The notes beneath the pieces are model-generated. The model had not been told where the DNA came from and did not search any database. It was given only the letters and a program-made list of their open reading frames with translations. Shown piece by piece: positions 25,726 through 41,178 of a stretch of DNA of 64,000 bases (positions are counted from its first letter, which is position 1; each line of letters begins with the position of its first letter). Both the position numbers and the translations under genes were made by a program. Origin of the DNA: Bacteroidota bacterium (GTDB lineage: Bacteria > Bacteroidota > Ignavibacteria > Tepidaquicellales > Tepidaquicellaceae); the NCBI GenBank assembly GCA_018266845.1, contig JAFDZO010000017.1, positions 1,426 to 65,425 of the forward strand. Direction: 5' to 3'.

Positions 25726-25931
25726 AGTATTGTAACCCTCCTTTGCTTAAGCATATGCCTCAGGGCATAGTTCAACGCCAGGGGACTATGCCCTCCTCTT
25801 TAATATAAAAACCCGTCAAGGTAATAATAAAAAATCGCACCACTAATAGGAGAAATAAAAAAGTTATATTTGAAAATTCCTTTCTGCTCATTATTTTTAT
25901 GAACGTTCTTTATTATATAAATATGCAATCT

Positions 25932-26749
25932 TGTAGATACGCAATACATTGCGTCTCGAAAATAATTGATACATCACGTTCGTAGAGACGCAATACTTTG
26001 CGTCTCGAAAAAATTGATGCACCGCGTTCGTTGAGATGCAATACTTTGCATCTCGAAAATAATTGATACACCGCGTTCGTTGAGATGCAATACGTCGCAT
26101 CTCGAAAATAATTGATAAACCGTGTTCGTAGAGACGCAATACGTTGTGTCTCGAAAAAATTGACGCACTGTGTCCGTAGAGACGCAATACTTTGCGTCTC
26201 GAAAAAATTGATGCATCGCGTCCGTAGATACGCAATACATTGCGCCTCGAAAATAATTGATACATCGTGTCCGTAGAAACGCAATACATTGCGTTTCGAA
26301 AAAATTGATGCATCGCGTTCGTTGAGATGCAATACGTCGCATCTCGAAAATAATTGATACACCGCGTTCATAGAGACGCAATACTTTGCATCTCGAAAAT
26401 AATTGATACATCACGTTCGTAGAGACGCAATACTTTGCGTCTCGAAAAAATTGATGCACCGCGTTCGTAGAAACGCAATACTTTGCATCTCGAAAATAAT
26501 TGATACACCACGTTCGTAGAGATGCAATACGTTGTGCCTCGAAAAAATTGACGCACTGTGTCCGTAGAGACGCAATACATTGCGTCTCGAAAATAATTGA
26601 TACATCGCGTTCGTAGAGACGCAATACTTTGCGCCTCGAAAAAATTGATACACCGCGTTCGTAGAGACGCAATACATTACGTCTCGAAAAAATTAATACA
26701 CCGCGTTCGTAGAGACGCAATACATTGCATCTCCAAGAAAATTCTAAAC
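25932..26749. repeat. Tandem hairpin array, 17 units of 48-49 bp
   Basis: Each unit has the form CGTAGAGACGCAATACTTTGC followed by GTCTCGAAAAAATTGATGCACCGCGTT. Units of 48 bp (with GAAAAAATTG) mix with units of 49 bp (GAAAATAATTG). Every unit contains a 22-nt hairpin, GAGACGCAA-TACT-TTGCGTCTC. Units 3 and 8 have coordinated changes in both arms (GAGATGCAA with TTGCATCTC; GAAACGCAA with TTGCGTTTC), and units 2, 6, 11 and 14 are also perfect. Several other units carry one or more unpaired changes. The spacer between hairpins is conserved, so it is not a CRISPR array. The same hairpin module occurs alone elsewhere in the window. Confidence 0.9.
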
Positions 26750-33916: not shown

Positions 33917-35827
33917 TCATACAAGTTCCTTTTCATATTCTTCTTTCCCGCTGTTAAAATCATCAATATCGTTTTCGTCGTTCTTTACTTCGTTGATTTC
34001 ATCAGTAATATCTTCTTCAAGTGTAACCTGTATGTCATGAATTTTTTTGTAAAATCCATTATTGCGAATGAGTTGTTCGTGATTTCCCATTTCAACAATA
34101 TGGCCCTTGTTTAATACTATTATTTTATCGCAAGTCATTGCAGCATTAATCCTGTGTGTAATTATAAATGTAGTTTTCTTTTTCATAATCTTATCAAGCG
34201 CTGAGCGTATCTCGTATTCCGTTTCCGTATCTACTGCCGAAGTTGAATCATCCAGCACAAGAATATCGGGATTTGTAAGTAATGTTCTTGCAATTGTTAC
34301 CCGCTGCTTCTGTCCGCCGGAAAGATTAATGCCTTTTTCTCCTATGACAGTTTTGTAAGCATCAGGGAAAATATCGTTTATGATTCCGTGAATGCTCGCA
34401 GCTTTTGCCGATTCAATAATTTCATCCGAGTGCGCATCGCGGTTGCCGTATGCAATGTTCTCTTTTATCGAAGTTGAAAACAAGAACGGCTTTTGCAATA
34501 CTACGCCGATTCTTTTCCTAAGCAATTCTTTAGAGTAGCTTTTAATATCTTTGCCGTCTAAAAGAATTTTTCCTTTCTGAATATCAAAGAACCTTGTAAG
34601 CAGTGAAATTATTGTGGTTTTTCCTGCCCCTGTAGGACCAAGCAATGCAATTTTTTCACCGGGCTTAGCTGTGAACGAAACGTTTTCCAGAGAATTTTTT
34701 TCATTGTTACCGTATTTAAAAGAAACATTTTCAAAAACAATTTCGCCCTTCAGCTTTTCGCTTTCCTTTACTTCGCCTTTGTTTTCTTCAAGCTCGCTGC
34801 CGAGAATTGAATAAATCCTGTCAATTGCTACTGAAGTCATTCCCATTTCACTTACAAGCTGCCCGAGCCTTCTCAAAGGCCAGATAACATAAAGCGAATA
34901 AACATTGAAAGCTGTCAATTCACCGATTGAAATTTTTCCATTAAGCGTAAAATACGCTCCGACAAAAACACAGACTGCAAGCTGAACATACATCACAATA
35001 TCTGAGTAGGGCCAGAAATAAGAGTGAAGTTTAAGAAGCTTAAAGCCCCATTGTCTTTTCTCTTCGTTCTGCTCGGTAAATTTTTCAATCTCAAATTTTT
35101 CCTTTGCGAACGCTTTTACAACTCTTATGCCCGAAAGATTTTCCTGCACTGTTACGGCTAATCTGTCCTGTCTTTTTTCATGCTCGTCCCAGATGACCAT
35201 TTCTTTTCTGAAGAAAACAATCGCGCCGATAATTACAAACGGACAAAGCCCGATAGAAATAAAAGCGAACGGAACATTAATTGAGAGCATCATTGCAAAT
35301 GCTCCGATAAATATCACTGCCATTCTAAGCGCTTCAACGACCTGCATTGAAGCAAATTTTCTTATCGTCTCAACATCTCCAGTGCATCGCTGTATAAGCT
35401 GACCGGTTGAAATCTGCGAATGATATGTCATTGGCAGAAACTGGATATGGCTGAACAAATCATCTTTTAATTTTTTAACCGCATTCTCTGTTGAAGATGC
35501 AGTAATCGTGCTTGAAACGAACCACGTTCCTGCGCGGAGAAAAGAAAAAATTAAATAGATAGCTCCGATTATCATTAAAACGTTGAGAACATTTTCATTA
35601 TTCATTTCGGGCAAAAGCCCGAACAGATATTTCGAAATTGCATCCGTTGAGATTTTTATGTTTCCACCTGTGCCCTGAAGCAAGAATACAAGCTTGTCAA
35701 CTGTAATCTGCAGAACTTTTGGTTCAAGCATCCTGATTAAAGTTGATACGATAAGCAATATCGCAGAAAGCACGTAGTACATCTTCCACTTGCCTAAAAT
35801 TCCGAATAGTCTTTTGAGGTTTTTCAT
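33917..35827 (-). CDS. ABC exporter subunit (degenerate Walker B)
   Basis: 636 aa, with six transmembrane helices (about 15-330) and an ATPase domain. Walker A GPTGAGKTT, signature LSGGQKQR and Walker B VLDDSTSAVD are seen. The residue after the Walker B Asp is Asp where the catalytic Glu is expected. This makes one composite ATP site degenerate if it pairs with the product of 30830-32656, whose signature motif is LSLGQ. The C-terminal tail (about 600-636) is acidic. First gene of the exporter-rtcB operon. Substrate unknown. Confidence 0.93.
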   Translation of the reverse strand: MKNLKRLFGILGKWKMYYVLSAILLIVSTLIRMLEPKVLQITVDKLVFLLQGTGGNIKISTDAISKYLFGLLPEMNNENVLNVLMIIGAIYLIFSFLRAGTWFVSSTITASSTENAVKKLKDDLFSHIQFLPMTYHSQISTGQLIQRCTGDVETIRKFASMQVVEALRMAVIFIGAFAMMLSINVPFAFISIGLCPFVIIGAIVFFRKEMVIWDEHEKRQDRLAVTVQENLSGIRVVKAFAKEKFEIEKFTEQNEEKRQWGFKLLKLHSYFWPYSDIVMYVQLAVCVFVGAYFTLNGKISIGELTAFNVYSLYVIWPLRRLGQLVSEMGMTSVAIDRIYSILGSELEENKGEVKESEKLKGEIVFENVSFKYGNNEKNSLENVSFTAKPGEKIALLGPTGAGKTTIISLLTRFFDIQKGKILLDGKDIKSYSKELLRKRIGVVLQKPFLFSTSIKENIAYGNRDAHSDEIIESAKAASIHGIINDIFPDAYKTVIGEKGINLSGGQKQRVTIARTLLTNPDILVLDDSTSAVDTETEYEIRSALDKIMKKKTTFIITHRINAAMTCDKIIVLNKGHIVEMGNHEQLIRNNGFYKKIHDIQVTLEEDITDEINEVKNDENDIDDFNSGKEEYEKELV

Positions 35828-36422: not shown

Positions 36423-36529
36423 GGTGCCCGTCCGTTCCGATGAAATCGGAACAAAACACAAACAGAAAAATTGAGAATTCAATTTTTCTGTTTGTGTTTA
36501 CGACTGCCTTGCAGTCGTGGACGGGCGCC
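36423..36529. repeat. 107-nt branched palindromic element (predicted four-way junction)
   Basis: The outer arms GGTGCCCGTCC (36423-36433) and GGACGGGCGCC (36519-36529) pair over 11 positions with one G-U. Inside lie three hairpins. GTTCCGAT-GAA-ATCGGAAC is at 36434-36452. A 21-bp perfect stem with a GAAT loop spans 36454-36499, and CGACTGC-CTT-GCAGTCG is at 36501-36517. Almost every base is paired. It could be a structured RNA, a cruciform-forming DNA element, or nested palindrome insertions. No match to a named RNA family was recognised. Confidence 0.85.
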
Positions 36530-36619
36530 CCCCCCCATTTTATTTTGTAACAATTATTCTTTCAATTTATCTGCTGCATCTTAATAATCAAAAATTTCTT
36601 GAAAGTTTATGCCGGCAAA

Positions 36620-36657
36620 CCCCCTCCTCTTTTGAGGAGGGGGTAGGGGGTGGTTTA
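36620..36657. repeat. Dispersed palindrome, CCCCCTCC family with G-rich tail
   Basis: A 10-bp stem CCCCCTCCTC/GAGGAGGGGG with a 4-nt loop is followed by TAGGGGGTGGTTTA. The same module with the same tail is at 40336-40372. The G-runs could also form a quadruplex. Confidence 0.85.
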
Positions 36658-36675
36658 TTATCGCACCAAAACAAA

Positions 36676-36722
36676 AAGACCTGCCAGGATTAATTCGCCG
36701 CGGCGAACTGACAGGTCTGAAT
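36676..36722 (-). terminator. Terminator of the DUF4175 gene
   Basis: Read on the minus strand, AGACCTGTCAG pairs with CTGGCAGGTCT (one mismatch). An inner perfect palindrome TTCGCCGCGGCGAA lies between them, and TTTTTGTTTTG follows. It lies about 65 bases after the stop of the gene ending at 36787. Confidence 0.75.
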
Positions 36723-36738
36723 TACAAAATTATTTTTA

Positions 36739-36764
36739 CGTTACGAATCAGGAGCTTCGTAACG
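36739..36764. repeat. Dispersed palindrome, CGTTACGAAGC family
   Basis: CGTTACGAATCAGGAGCTTC followed by GTAACG; the outer seven bases on each side pair. Related to the perfect copy at 40399-40424. Confidence 0.75.
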
Positions 36765-36786: not shown

Positions 36787-39700
36787 TTACTTTTGCGCGT
36801 TCACCTTTTCCAAATACTTCATTATTAAAACCTCATAGTCATCAGTATAGCCTTCTTTCTGCAATTTCAAAATATCTTCCTTTAATGCGTTATAAGAATT
36901 CGGTCCTGATAAAACTATTTCCGGCGGCGACTGCCGCACCATATTGTTTCCCGGCTTCGATTCCCTCTTAGGCTCAAAATCTTTTTCCCTCTGCAATAGC
37001 TGCGCATCAAGCATTCTCGATAAAATCCTGTTCTGCTTCTCAACTGTCTTATCAGTAACTTTGTTTTGCTGCATATCCTTTATTACTTCCTGCATATCCT
37101 TCTGCACTTGATTCAGGTCGCCCAAAATTTTCTCACCGCTTCTTTCCTGTTCTTTTTTCAATTCCTCGTTTAACTGCTCCAGCGATTTGCTGATTTGCTG
37201 CTGCTCCATTTGCAGCCTCTGCATATTCGCCTTTTGCTCTTCACTCAGACCGTTCTCACTTCCCTCCTGTCCCTCTTTACCTTCCTTGCCGCTCTTTCCC
37301 ATTTTGCTCATCTGTCCGTTCACGCCCTGCTGCTGCTGAATCATCTGCGCAAGCTGCTGCATCAGCTCGCCCATTCTGCCAGAGTTTCCTTTACCGCTTT
37401 TTCCGTCCTTACCATCTTTTCCCTGCTGACCCATTTTCTTCATCATGTCTCCCATCATCTGCCCCGCTTTATCAAGTGATGTTTTTGCATCGCCCTGATT
37501 ATCCGCTGCGCCGTCTTTATTCTGTTTACCAAGCTCCTGCCCCGCCTTATCCATTTTATTGAAAGCATTGCCAAGCTCTTTGCCCATTTCGGGAGGAATC
37601 TGCATTCCGCTTTTGGATAGGTTCATCACATCGTCAATTGTCTGCGCCAAATCATTTTGCAGCTTGTTTTGCTCCTGTTTATTTTTATCAAACTCCTTTT
37701 TCTCGTCCTTTGAAAGCTCTTCAGTTTTATCTTTCAGTTCCTTTTGCCTCTTGCTCAGTTCTTCCAAATCCTTTTTTATATTGCCCATCTTCTCCATCAT
37801 TTTTTTCTGCTGGCTCTGCGCATCCATCATATTTTGCAATGCGTCCTGCATTTCGTTGTTCAAATCGTTCAAATCTTGAGATAATTCTTCCTGCGTATCT
37901 TCAGATGAATTTTTATCGCCCTTCTGCATCTGGTCGGAGGACTTATTCATTTTATTTTCGATGTTCTTTTGCTCCATCTTTTTACGGATTTTATCAAGGT
38001 CTTCCGCAGTTGCGTTCTCTTTCAGATTTTTTAAATCATCAATTAATTTTTTCAGCTGCTCCTGAAAATCTTTTGTCTCGTTCTTAATATCTTTCTGCTT
38101 ATCGGAAAGCTGGTTTAATTTATTCTGGTCGTTCTTATCCGAGTTCTTTGTTTCATTTTTTAAATCGTTTTGTTTTTTTGTAATGTCATCAAGCTTCTGA
38201 GTAAGCTCGCCAAACTTCTGCATGTTCTCAATCTTCTTCATTAGCTCCATTACTTTTTCAAGATATTTCTTGAAAGCTTCTTCATCAAACTTAAAATTCT
38301 TCAGAGCATCTTTCAGTTCATCGGTATTATTTTTCTTCATCGCCTCCTGAAGTTTTTTCAGCATTTCCTGAAGCTCGGGAGTATTAATTTTATTGTACAT
38401 CTTCTGAAGCTCCATATACTGCTCAAGAGTTTTTTCCGAAAGTTCATTCCTCTGCTTCATTTCGTTTATTGACTGGTCAAGCTTCTGCTGAGTAGAGTTC
38501 AAATTCTGCTGAAGATTGTTCAGCTTATTTTCAAGCTCCTGTTTTTGCTTCGGGTCGTTCAGTCCGAGGTCTTCATTCCTCTGCGCATCTTTTTTTAATT
38601 CCTGTAAATCTTTCTGAACATCCTGAAGCTGCTGCAAAGATGAATTCAGATCCGACTTCAATTCTTTGTTAACTTTATCTGTATTCTTTAAAGCGTCGGA
38701 AAAAGATTTATATGTGATTGTCCGTGTATCGGATTTTACAGAGTGCCCCGTGTTATCGGTAACTTCAAGAAAGTATTCAACCGTCTGTCCCGATGAAATT
38801 CCCGGAAGATTCCAGACGTAAGGAACTTCAACCGAGCGGGCATTGAGATTTTGTATGGGAATATTTATGAATGTATAATTAGCCGAGCTTGATGTAATGT
38901 TTCCGCCTGTAACTTTTTTATAACCAAGTTTTAAGGACGAAAATCCATAGTCATCCGAAATTCTTGCGCGAAGCAGAATATCTTTTTGACCTGTTAAGAT
39001 AAAATTCGATTCGTTCGGCTCCATAATTGTAATGGAAGGCGGCTCATCTGCAATTACTTTTATGTTATATGTTACAGGATTTTTATTGACCGCTCTGTTT
39101 TTATCCTTTAAATAAAATTTGTACGAGCCGTCTGCACTGGCAGTGATTGTTCCCGAAGCATTATCACCGTTAACATTGAAGTTAATTGATTTCCCTTCTA
39201 GGATAATTCCTGCTGCCGATAAAACTTTGTTTGATTTTACATCGAAGAAAATACTGCTTCCCTGCATACAAAAAATTTCCCCTTCGTTTTCTGCAAGAAT
39301 TTTCGGAGGAAGATTTGTGAACGCAGGCGGTGTAATTGTTATCTTAAAATTTTTTACGAGGGGATTATCGTTAGTTTTTATTCTGAATTCGTCAGAACGC
39401 ACTCCCTCATACTCGGCATAATAAATAATATCATTGTTTATATTTTCAATAACTGCATTAAAAGATTTATCGGAAGAAATTTTAATGTCTTTTTTATCCG
39501 ATAAAATTTCCGAGCCGTCTTTTGTGATTTCTTTTTTTACAAGAGTAATTTCATTCACATCAACGGGCTTTGTTGAACTTATTAAAACCTTAATGTTTAC
39601 ATTTTCTCCCTTTGAAACTTCCGTATTTCCGGGAGTTACAATGAAAGCAATTCCTAAATCATTCAGTAAAAAATTATAGTTATAATTTACAAGACGGTTA

Positions 39701-40260
39701 ACAGAGCCGAACATTGCTGTTGGAAAAACGGCAAACGAAATTCCCCATATAAAAATCGCAGTCAGCAAAATCAAAAATAATTTTCTCAGGGTTTTAAATG
39801 AAACGTAATCTTCAAAGTTTATTTTTTCCGAGCTTGAATAAACTTCTTCGATGTTTGCAGTAATAAGCTCATTTGAAAAAACCGTTCCGCTGCTGCTCTC
39901 CACAAGGAAAAGTGAATTTGAAAGACGGTCTTTTACTTCGGGAAAATTCTCGCCGACTTTTTTGGAATATGGAATAATTTCAAGCGGCTTTATAACACCT
40001 AACTTTTTTAAAAGATAATTTACAAGTATGTAAACGAAAGTAGTAACGGATGTGGATAAAAATCCCCAGTAAAAAATTTTGCGCGCAGCAATGCCGAAAT
40101 GAAAAACGGATTCAAGAAGGACAATAAGAAATCCGAGAGAAAGAAAAAAAATGGAGGCGAAAAGAACACCCTTTGCTAAATTGAAAAGAAGCTCCTTGCC
40201 GTAAACTTTTTGTATGCGCTGCTCGAGGGAATTGACAATTTGTAAGACCGCTGATGACAT
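36787..40260 (-). CDS. DUF4175-type membrane protein with long coiled coil
   Basis: 1157 aa. Three N-terminal transmembrane helices (about 25-50, 62-84, 158-182) precede an extracytoplasmic part with beta-rich, Ig-like segments (about 210-510). About 500 residues of Gln/Lys/Glu/Met-rich coiled coil follow (for example LQDVQKDLQELKKDAQRNED), with Gly/Lys-rich stretches such as GKDGKDGKSGKGNSG near 960-1000. The C-terminus is a short conserved segment with YTDDYEVLIMKYLEKV. This architecture matches the DUF4175 family of Bacteroidota and Proteobacteria, whose function is not established. It is alone on the strand with its own terminator. Confidence 0.82.
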   Translation of the reverse strand: MSSAVLQIVNSLEQRIQKVYGKELLFNLAKGVLFASIFFLSLGFLIVLLESVFHFGIAARKIFYWGFLSTSVTTFVYILVNYLLKKLGVIKPLEIIPYSKKVGENFPEVKDRLSNSLFLVESSSGTVFSNELITANIEEVYSSSEKINFEDYVSFKTLRKLFLILLTAIFIWGISFAVFPTAMFGSVNRLVNYNYNFLLNDLGIAFIVTPGNTEVSKGENVNIKVLISSTKPVDVNEITLVKKEITKDGSEILSDKKDIKISSDKSFNAVIENINNDIIYYAEYEGVRSDEFRIKTNDNPLVKNFKITITPPAFTNLPPKILAENEGEIFCMQGSSIFFDVKSNKVLSAAGIILEGKSINFNVNGDNASGTITASADGSYKFYLKDKNRAVNKNPVTYNIKVIADEPPSITIMEPNESNFILTGQKDILLRARISDDYGFSSLKLGYKKVTGGNITSSSANYTFINIPIQNLNARSVEVPYVWNLPGISSGQTVEYFLEVTDNTGHSVKSDTRTITYKSFSDALKNTDKVNKELKSDLNSSLQQLQDVQKDLQELKKDAQRNEDLGLNDPKQKQELENKLNNLQQNLNSTQQKLDQSINEMKQRNELSEKTLEQYMELQKMYNKINTPELQEMLKKLQEAMKKNNTDELKDALKNFKFDEEAFKKYLEKVMELMKKIENMQKFGELTQKLDDITKKQNDLKNETKNSDKNDQNKLNQLSDKQKDIKNETKDFQEQLKKLIDDLKNLKENATAEDLDKIRKKMEQKNIENKMNKSSDQMQKGDKNSSEDTQEELSQDLNDLNNEMQDALQNMMDAQSQQKKMMEKMGNIKKDLEELSKRQKELKDKTEELSKDEKKEFDKNKQEQNKLQNDLAQTIDDVMNLSKSGMQIPPEMGKELGNAFNKMDKAGQELGKQNKDGAADNQGDAKTSLDKAGQMMGDMMKKMGQQGKDGKDGKSGKGNSGRMGELMQQLAQMIQQQQGVNGQMSKMGKSGKEGKEGQEGSENGLSEEQKANMQRLQMEQQQISKSLEQLNEELKKEQERSGEKILGDLNQVQKDMQEVIKDMQQNKVTDKTVEKQNRILSRMLDAQLLQREKDFEPKRESKPGNNMVRQSPPEIVLSGPNSYNALKEDILKLQKEGYTDDYEVLIMKYLEKVNAQK

Positions 40261-40743: not shown

Positions 40744-41178
40744 CGGCTTGGGAAAGAAAAATTATATGCGCTAACATATTCGTAAATACCTGACAGGTTT
40801 TTAATCCCGTCAGGCAGATACGATGCGTATGTAGAGACGCAATACATTGCGTCTCTAACAAAAACAAGTTACCCTCTTTCCTAAGCTCCGGCTTGGGAAA
40901 GAAAAATTATATGCGCTAACATATTCGTAAATACCTGATAGGTTTTTAATCCTGTCAGGCAGACACGATACGTATGTAGAGACGCAATACATTGCGTCTC
41001 TAACAAAAATAAATTACCCTTTTTCCAAAACTCCGGCTTGGGAAAGAAAAATTATATGCGTTAGTATACTCGTTAAGACCTGACTGGTTTTTAATCCCGT
41101 CAGGCAGACACGATACGTATGTAGAGACGCAATACATTGCGTCTCTAACAAAAACAAATTACCATCTTTCCTAAGCTC
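40744..41178. repeat. 145-bp tandem cassette, three copies
   Basis: CGGCTTGGGAAAGAAAAATT recurs at 40744, 40889 and 41034, with a truncated fourth start at 41179, so the period is exactly 145 bp. Each unit contains a CCTGAC...GTCAGG hairpin and the GAGACGCAATACATTGCGTC hairpin also found in the 25932-26749 array. Copies differ at only a few positions, so the duplication is recent or homogenised. Confidence 0.9.

Follow-up and report, generated by a model that had tools for sequence, protein, structure and literature searches.

An intergenic family of four-armed repeat elements in which the fold is conserved and the stem sequences are free

A 107-nt element of the window, by which we mean the whole stretch of 64,000 nucleotides analysed here (contig JAFDZO010000017.1 of the Bacteroidota bacterium assembly GCA_018266845.1), belongs to a family of about 30 copies that share an architecture and not a sequence. 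Pairing statistics indicate that the upkeep of their stems most likely acts on DNA, either through template switching, in which one arm is copied from its partner, or through selection on the folded DNA. We consider that the family probably represents a dispersed, intergenic, non-autonomous REP/MITE-like element, the unit of which is a single DNA strand folded as a four-armed cross.

Computational folding of the + strand closed exactly positions 36423-36529 into a four-way junction of -71.8 kcal/mol (Table 1). The mean for 200 dinucleotide shuffles of the same segment was -24.5 (sd 3.1), which places the native fold at z = -15.1, and none of the 200 equalled it. The coordinates and layout that a preliminary description had given for this junction were thus correct, as were its 11-bp outer stem, its 8-bp hairpin and its perfect 21-bp hairpin; the last hairpin, described there as 7 bp, has 8. 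The outer stem (36423-36433 with 36519-36529) includes one T-G pair, and a single unpaired A lies at the junction, between the 8-bp side hairpin 1 and the 21-bp central hairpin.

Table 1. Positions of the features discussed in the text. Coordinates are those of the window, except for the second family.
Feature	Position	Strand	Basis and remarks
Flanking gene, 636 aa, putative ABC transporter	33917..35827	-	Motifs read by eye in translation
Outer stem, left arm GGTGCCCGTCC	36423..36433	+	Fold; 9 of 11 family pairs changed on both sides
Side hairpin 1, 8 bp, loop GAA, GTTCCGAT..ATCGGAAC	36434..36452	+	Fold, copy alignment, covariation; by copy alignment, counterpart of the GTCCCGA..TCGGGAC hairpin in most other copies
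Central hairpin, 21 perfect bp, loop 4	36454..36499	+	Fold, copy alignment, covariation; apex AAATTGA..TCAATTT is the most conserved part, the remainder varies among copies with pairing retained
Side hairpin 2, 8 bp, loop CTT, ACGACTGC..GCAGTCGT	36500..36518	+	Fold, copy alignment, covariation; counterpart of the GAACC..GGTTC hairpin in many other copies
Outer stem, right arm GGACGGGCGCC	36519..36529	+	Followed by a C run, 36530-36536
Flanking gene, 1157 aa, coiled-coil-rich by eye	36787..40260	-	
Second-family copies	L125:2269-2356; L115:208-297; L133:19357-19444		In G000 C40, C44 and C22
Second-family copies, circularly permuted	G000 C22:137728-137828; C11:46268-46372		

The element sits in a 959-bp gap between two minus-strand genes, and the 636-aa translation of one of them contains a Walker A motif (GPTGAGKTT) and the signature LSGGQKQR. 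Other repeats were noted in the window: a palindrome ACCCCCTCCTCTTTTGAGGAGGGGGTAGGGGGT, a CCTGCCAGG..CTGACAGG pair and a REP-like CGTTACGAATCAGGAGCTTCGTAACG directly past the element (36613-36740), a dense array of GAGACGCAATACATTGCGTCTC-type palindromes with a spacing of about 48 nt (25926-26733), and three occurrences of TAGAGACGCAATACATTGCGTCTCTA spaced exactly 145 nt apart (40832-41147).

Sequence-only searches returned two clear relatives: a second copy in the own genome, which is 82% identical to the window element and has the same fold, and, in a congeneric genome, a third copy of 107 nt that has the same layout and little sequence in common with the window element. Other weak matches of these searches do not fold into the element. 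A first covariance model (R1), made from these three copies, matched further copies in both genomes and nearly nothing in other genomes, and its matches in the two-genome sequence were bimodal, all lying at E <= 4e-7 and none between 4e-7 and 1. A second, more sensitive model (R2), made from 20 copies, raised the count to about 17 members in the own genome and 13 in the congeneric species, and added a few weak or reduced copies. Given this bimodality and the little that R2 added, decayed copies are few.

Across 391 genomes of the class, with ten candidates scored per genome, strong R2 matches were confined to the two genomes and no convincing relative was found in the other 389. Six weak matches lay outside the two genomes: L231 folds only loosely, L227 looks like chance, and L226, L228, L229 and L230 fold instead into other multi-hairpin composite repeats with a GTCCCGA..TCGGGAC hairpin, at least some of which occur in many partial copies per genome. 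Because such composite repeats with that hairpin exist elsewhere in the class, a layout of four arms may extend beyond the window family. A motif scan of 85,000 GTDB genomes gave 11 matches and one of viral contigs gave a single match, none of which folds into the element, and plasmid and phage records held no match. Within the searches made, the family is restricted to one genus. It is real and, as far as these searches reach, undescribed.

We also scanned 2.3 Mb from both genomes for structure only, using no sequence motif, and recovered the same elements as with the covariance model. At a threshold of at least 80% paired, the scan gave 14 elements with three inner helices and one each with two and with four; the four-helix element overlaps a family member. 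The same scan of three Markov-resampled versions of the 2.3 Mb gave none. The early judgement that such a layout is improbable by chance is therefore upheld, by the shuffles as well as by the resampled DNA, and the second copy, the family-wide matches and the empty resampled scans rule out a unique chance palindrome.

The copies have an outer stem of about 8-13 bp, side hairpins of 7-9 bp in most cases and a central stem that is usually 16-22 bp long, and the order of the three hairpins is identical in every full copy. When the copies were oriented and aligned, the outer arms were mostly of the GGGGCGC type, the side hairpins read GTCCCGA..TCGGGAC in most and GAACC..GGTTC in many, and the apex of the central stem was AAATTGA..TCAATTT in most. 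The fold scores well and similarly on both strands because the element is nearly symmetric. Of the parts, the GTCCCG hairpin occurred 10 times inside listed elements and three times outside them, namely in one further member, one reduced copy and one unrelated place. The reduced copy (G000 C22:43242-43286) is a 45-nt derivative with only the outer stem and one side hairpin (GTCCCG); two hairpins seem to have been cleanly lost from it at the junction, as slippage across the folded single strand would be expected to produce.

Analysis of 20 aligned copies on the consensus structure revealed that 41 of 48 pairs had changed on both sides. In this alignment 90.4% of the cells were paired, a level biased upward by the partial selection of copies for folding, compared with 66% after shuffling and 35-47% with slid partners; double-changed cells numbered 225, against 67 expected from shuffling. 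The second copy of the own genome, which was found by sequence similarity alone, is free of this bias: its central stem differs from that of the window element at seven pairs, and all seven changed on both arms, with no one-sided change. These results strongly support the conclusion that the shape is conserved and the letters are free. Genome search and covariation analysis, two of the checks that the preliminary description had proposed, confirm that the fold is conserved as a single unit to a degree far beyond chance.

An RNA drifting under selection is expected to pass via G-U intermediates, and a structured RNA should tolerate G-U above A-C. The helices of 22 copies, drawn from single loci and from 1.5 Mb of own-genome and 0.8 Mb of relative sequence, comprised 1011 Watson-Crick pairs, 3 G-T, 9 A-C and 5 other mismatches. 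In contrast, tRNAs from the sequence of the same genomes had 38 G-T (5.4%), no A-C and 2 other mismatches in 710 pairs. When G-T was permitted in the folding, it still made up only 9 of 1020 pairs (about 1%) in the family elements. Fisher tests of elements against tRNAs gave p ~2e-8 for the frequency of G-T and p ~9e-8 for G-T versus A-C, and the mismatches showed no preference for the strand on which they would be G-U. Because G-T is rare and no commoner than A-C, the stems appear to be kept at the level of DNA and not as a structured RNA. As ways of keeping the stems, selection on a DNA cruciform and arm copying fit the present data equally and cannot be told apart by them. In a search of the window, Rfam returned nothing at gathering score, and a relaxed threshold gave weak matches only, far below it.

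The examined copies lie in intergenic DNA or nearly so; three overlap unverified frames. Among 19 copies, 12 lie between tandem, 5 between divergent and 2 between convergent genes, and 8 have a stop codon no more than 20 nt away, against an expectation of 2.1 (p = 7e-5); orientation and gene context differ among copies. The flanks have no common T run and 5 of the 19 copies stand between divergent genes, so an intrinsic terminator was rejected. Dispersed single intergenic copies argue against an identity as integron attC sites.

Comparison of orthologous sites in the two species, with genes aligned on both sides, showed that three of four comparable sites carry no element in the other species. 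These empty sites rest on diverged intergenic alignments with junctions not fixed to the base, and loss is as possible as gain. At one orthologous site (G000 C22:137337 / G001 C2:843039) both species have an element in the same orientation, which is 49% identical inside, with its stems rewritten, compared with 71-81% in the flanks. No near-identical copies were seen at different sites; the most similar ones within one genome share 82%, and the data therefore do not demonstrate recent movement. Target-site duplication was absent, a 4-nt flank repeat occurring in 3 of 22 copies against 1.6 expected. IS200/IS605 elements likewise insert without target duplication. HUH/Y1 (PF01797) genes are present in the genome. 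At the six Y1 loci of the two genomes there was no four-armed copy, and the hairpins there differ; around each gene of four of them (L246, L247, L248 and L249) we observed REP hairpins of its own, several per locus, with CAGGAG/CTCCTG-type loops. The flanks of 21 copies held no conserved tag, including any of the GTAG/GTGG type at the foot of the outer stem. On the attachment or recombination site that the preliminary description also considered, the analysis covered target-site duplication and adjacent Y1 transposases, and found neither.

The own genome contains a second, unrelated family of four-armed repeats, with about 20 copies in the 2.3 Mb. These measure about 105 nt with their flanking arms, and the outer arms CTCCCTTGAGGGAG / CTCCCCTCAAGGGGAG are each self-complementary. 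In two copies, which are circularly permuted (Table 1), the usual inner-hairpin stem lies outside and the usual ends are joined in the middle. Such copies hint at circular intermediates, since integration from a circle would give them; the remnant of a tandem pair would do so too. Joined-end copies of the window family were not found in the examined sequence of the two genomes.

The reading that we prefer, a non-autonomous element whose unit is the folded single strand, would work as follows. Complementarity of the arms would be maintained in the DNA itself, most simply through template switching: a polymerase on the folded single strand would use one arm as template for its partner, and a block would thereby change along with its complement. 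The element would spread as single-stranded DNA exposed at replication, without target-site duplication, probably with the action of a host or HUH/Y1-type enzyme encoded elsewhere in the genome, and would settle between genes, often just past a stop codon, where harm is least. Our results suggest that the folded DNA strand itself is the thing kept, and it is probably also what moves. We infer, with moderate confidence, both the spread as single-stranded DNA and the rewriting of arms by template switching; because the Y1 genes carry REP hairpins of their own, the step from the folded strand to a new site is the one we infer. A bolder version is possible, though doubtful: selfish elements of bacterial chromosomes would persist and spread as closed, four-armed molecules of single-stranded DNA, of which the fold and not the letters is inherited, folding and arm copying rewriting the sequence continually while repairing the shape. 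Any arm might then open for insertion, which would account for the circular permutation in the second family.

The same observations bear on readings in which the fold serves the host. The preliminary description had proposed a non-coding RNA. A structured RNA or 3'-UTR element, with the RNA fold selected and the stems drifting by compensatory mutation, would fit the very strong covariation of all helices, the conserved apical AAATTGA..TCAATTT and, given a role at mRNA 3' ends, the excess near stop codons. However, the compensatory changes found in the helices are also expected from DNA arm copying, and a G-T share of about 1%, no commoner than A-C and unlike that of the tRNAs of the same genomes, makes this proposal unlikely, together with the good fold score on both strands, the 5 of 19 copies between divergent genes, presence or absence at orthologous sites and the lack of an Rfam match at gathering score. 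We regard as similarly unlikely a double-stranded cruciform or four-way junction that binds a host nucleoid or junction-binding protein and is selected site by site, domesticated and not selfish. Perfect Watson-Crick arms of fixed length, the scarcity of decayed copies and the orthologous site that retains its element with every stem rewritten all speak for it, but most comparable sites are not common to both species, the family is restricted to one genus, and orientation and gene context vary.

Movement of a REP/BIME-type repeat by the genome's own Y1 (RAYT) protein is decidedly unlikely. The genome does have Y1 genes, the copies are palindromic, intergenic and near stop codons, and REP dimers with spacer stem-loops have been described (PMC3733652); yet the foot of the outer stem has no GTAG/GTGG-type tag, no Y1 locus is flanked by a copy, and the stems of a REP family keep their sequence whereas those of the four-armed family do not. 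Palindromes inserting separately into palindromes without function as a unit, also suggested early on, are strongly disfavoured and conceivable only as the origin of the ancestral copy. The genome is rich in other palindromic repeats and one reduced copy holds an outer stem and one side hairpin, but every full copy has the same three-hairpin order, the inner hairpins almost never occur without the remainder of the element, and the structural scan gave no series of partial combinations. Copies with the inner hairpins in other combinations, which nested insertion would leave behind, were looked for and hardly any were found, the 45-nt derivative being the exception.

Among known systems, the family resembles REP, BIME and REPIN repeats in being short, palindromic and intergenic, with many copies that often lie near gene ends (PMC3733652, PMC6006769). 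REP inverted pairs can form one large structure, and some dimers have spacer stem-loops (PMC3733652, PMC6006769). A REP, however, is a single hairpin that carries a GTAG/CGTC-type tag and whose stem is conserved in sequence (PMC3733652, PMC6006769), whereas the four-armed unit lacks a tag, closes into a four-way junction and has its stems rewritten. Like bacterial MITEs and the stem-loop families ERIC, NEMIS and YPAL, the elements are about 100 bp long, non-coding and dispersed, with terminal inverted repeats (PMC2267715), here the mostly GGGGCGC-type outer stem. ERIC is predicted to form one long hairpin (PMC2267715). Unlike MITEs (PMC2267715), the four-armed family has no target-site duplication and no sequence-conserved body, and no parent transposon was found in a search that covered Y1 genes. 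The Y1 elements IS200/IS605, which use single-stranded circles (PMC6006769), share with our proposal a hairpin-bearing folded single-stranded DNA as the working form; in the four-armed family there is no transposase gene, the arms close into a cross, and no tetranucleotide tag was recognised. Small, folded, intergenic double-hairpin or repetitive hairpin elements of mitochondria are thought to be mobile since related species differ in their insertions, according to Paquin et al. 2000 as cited in PMC2800124. The likeness is one of behaviour and not of membership: structure is conserved and presence differs between relatives. The mitochondrial elements have one or two hairpins, occasionally something more elaborate, and reside in organelles, whereas the four-armed family occurs in bacterial chromosomes as a closed cross of constant layout, for which covariation and a scarcity of G-T pairs were measured. 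Perfect hairpins can arise and be preserved through template switching (PMC8794818), a process that would explain perfect stems whose two sides change jointly in a single event; unlike our family, it was described as a mutational process in RNA genes and not as a dispersed family (PMC8794818).

Covariation is normally accepted as proof that an RNA is functional, and the overwhelming covariation in every helix of this family, combined with base-pair statistics of DNA, cautions against calling such families RNAs. The family also offers a clean setting in which palindromes can be watched as they rewrite and mend themselves. That two unrelated families of one genome share the four-armed layout, and that one of them includes circular permutations, provides a testable case for movement as a folded single-stranded circle.
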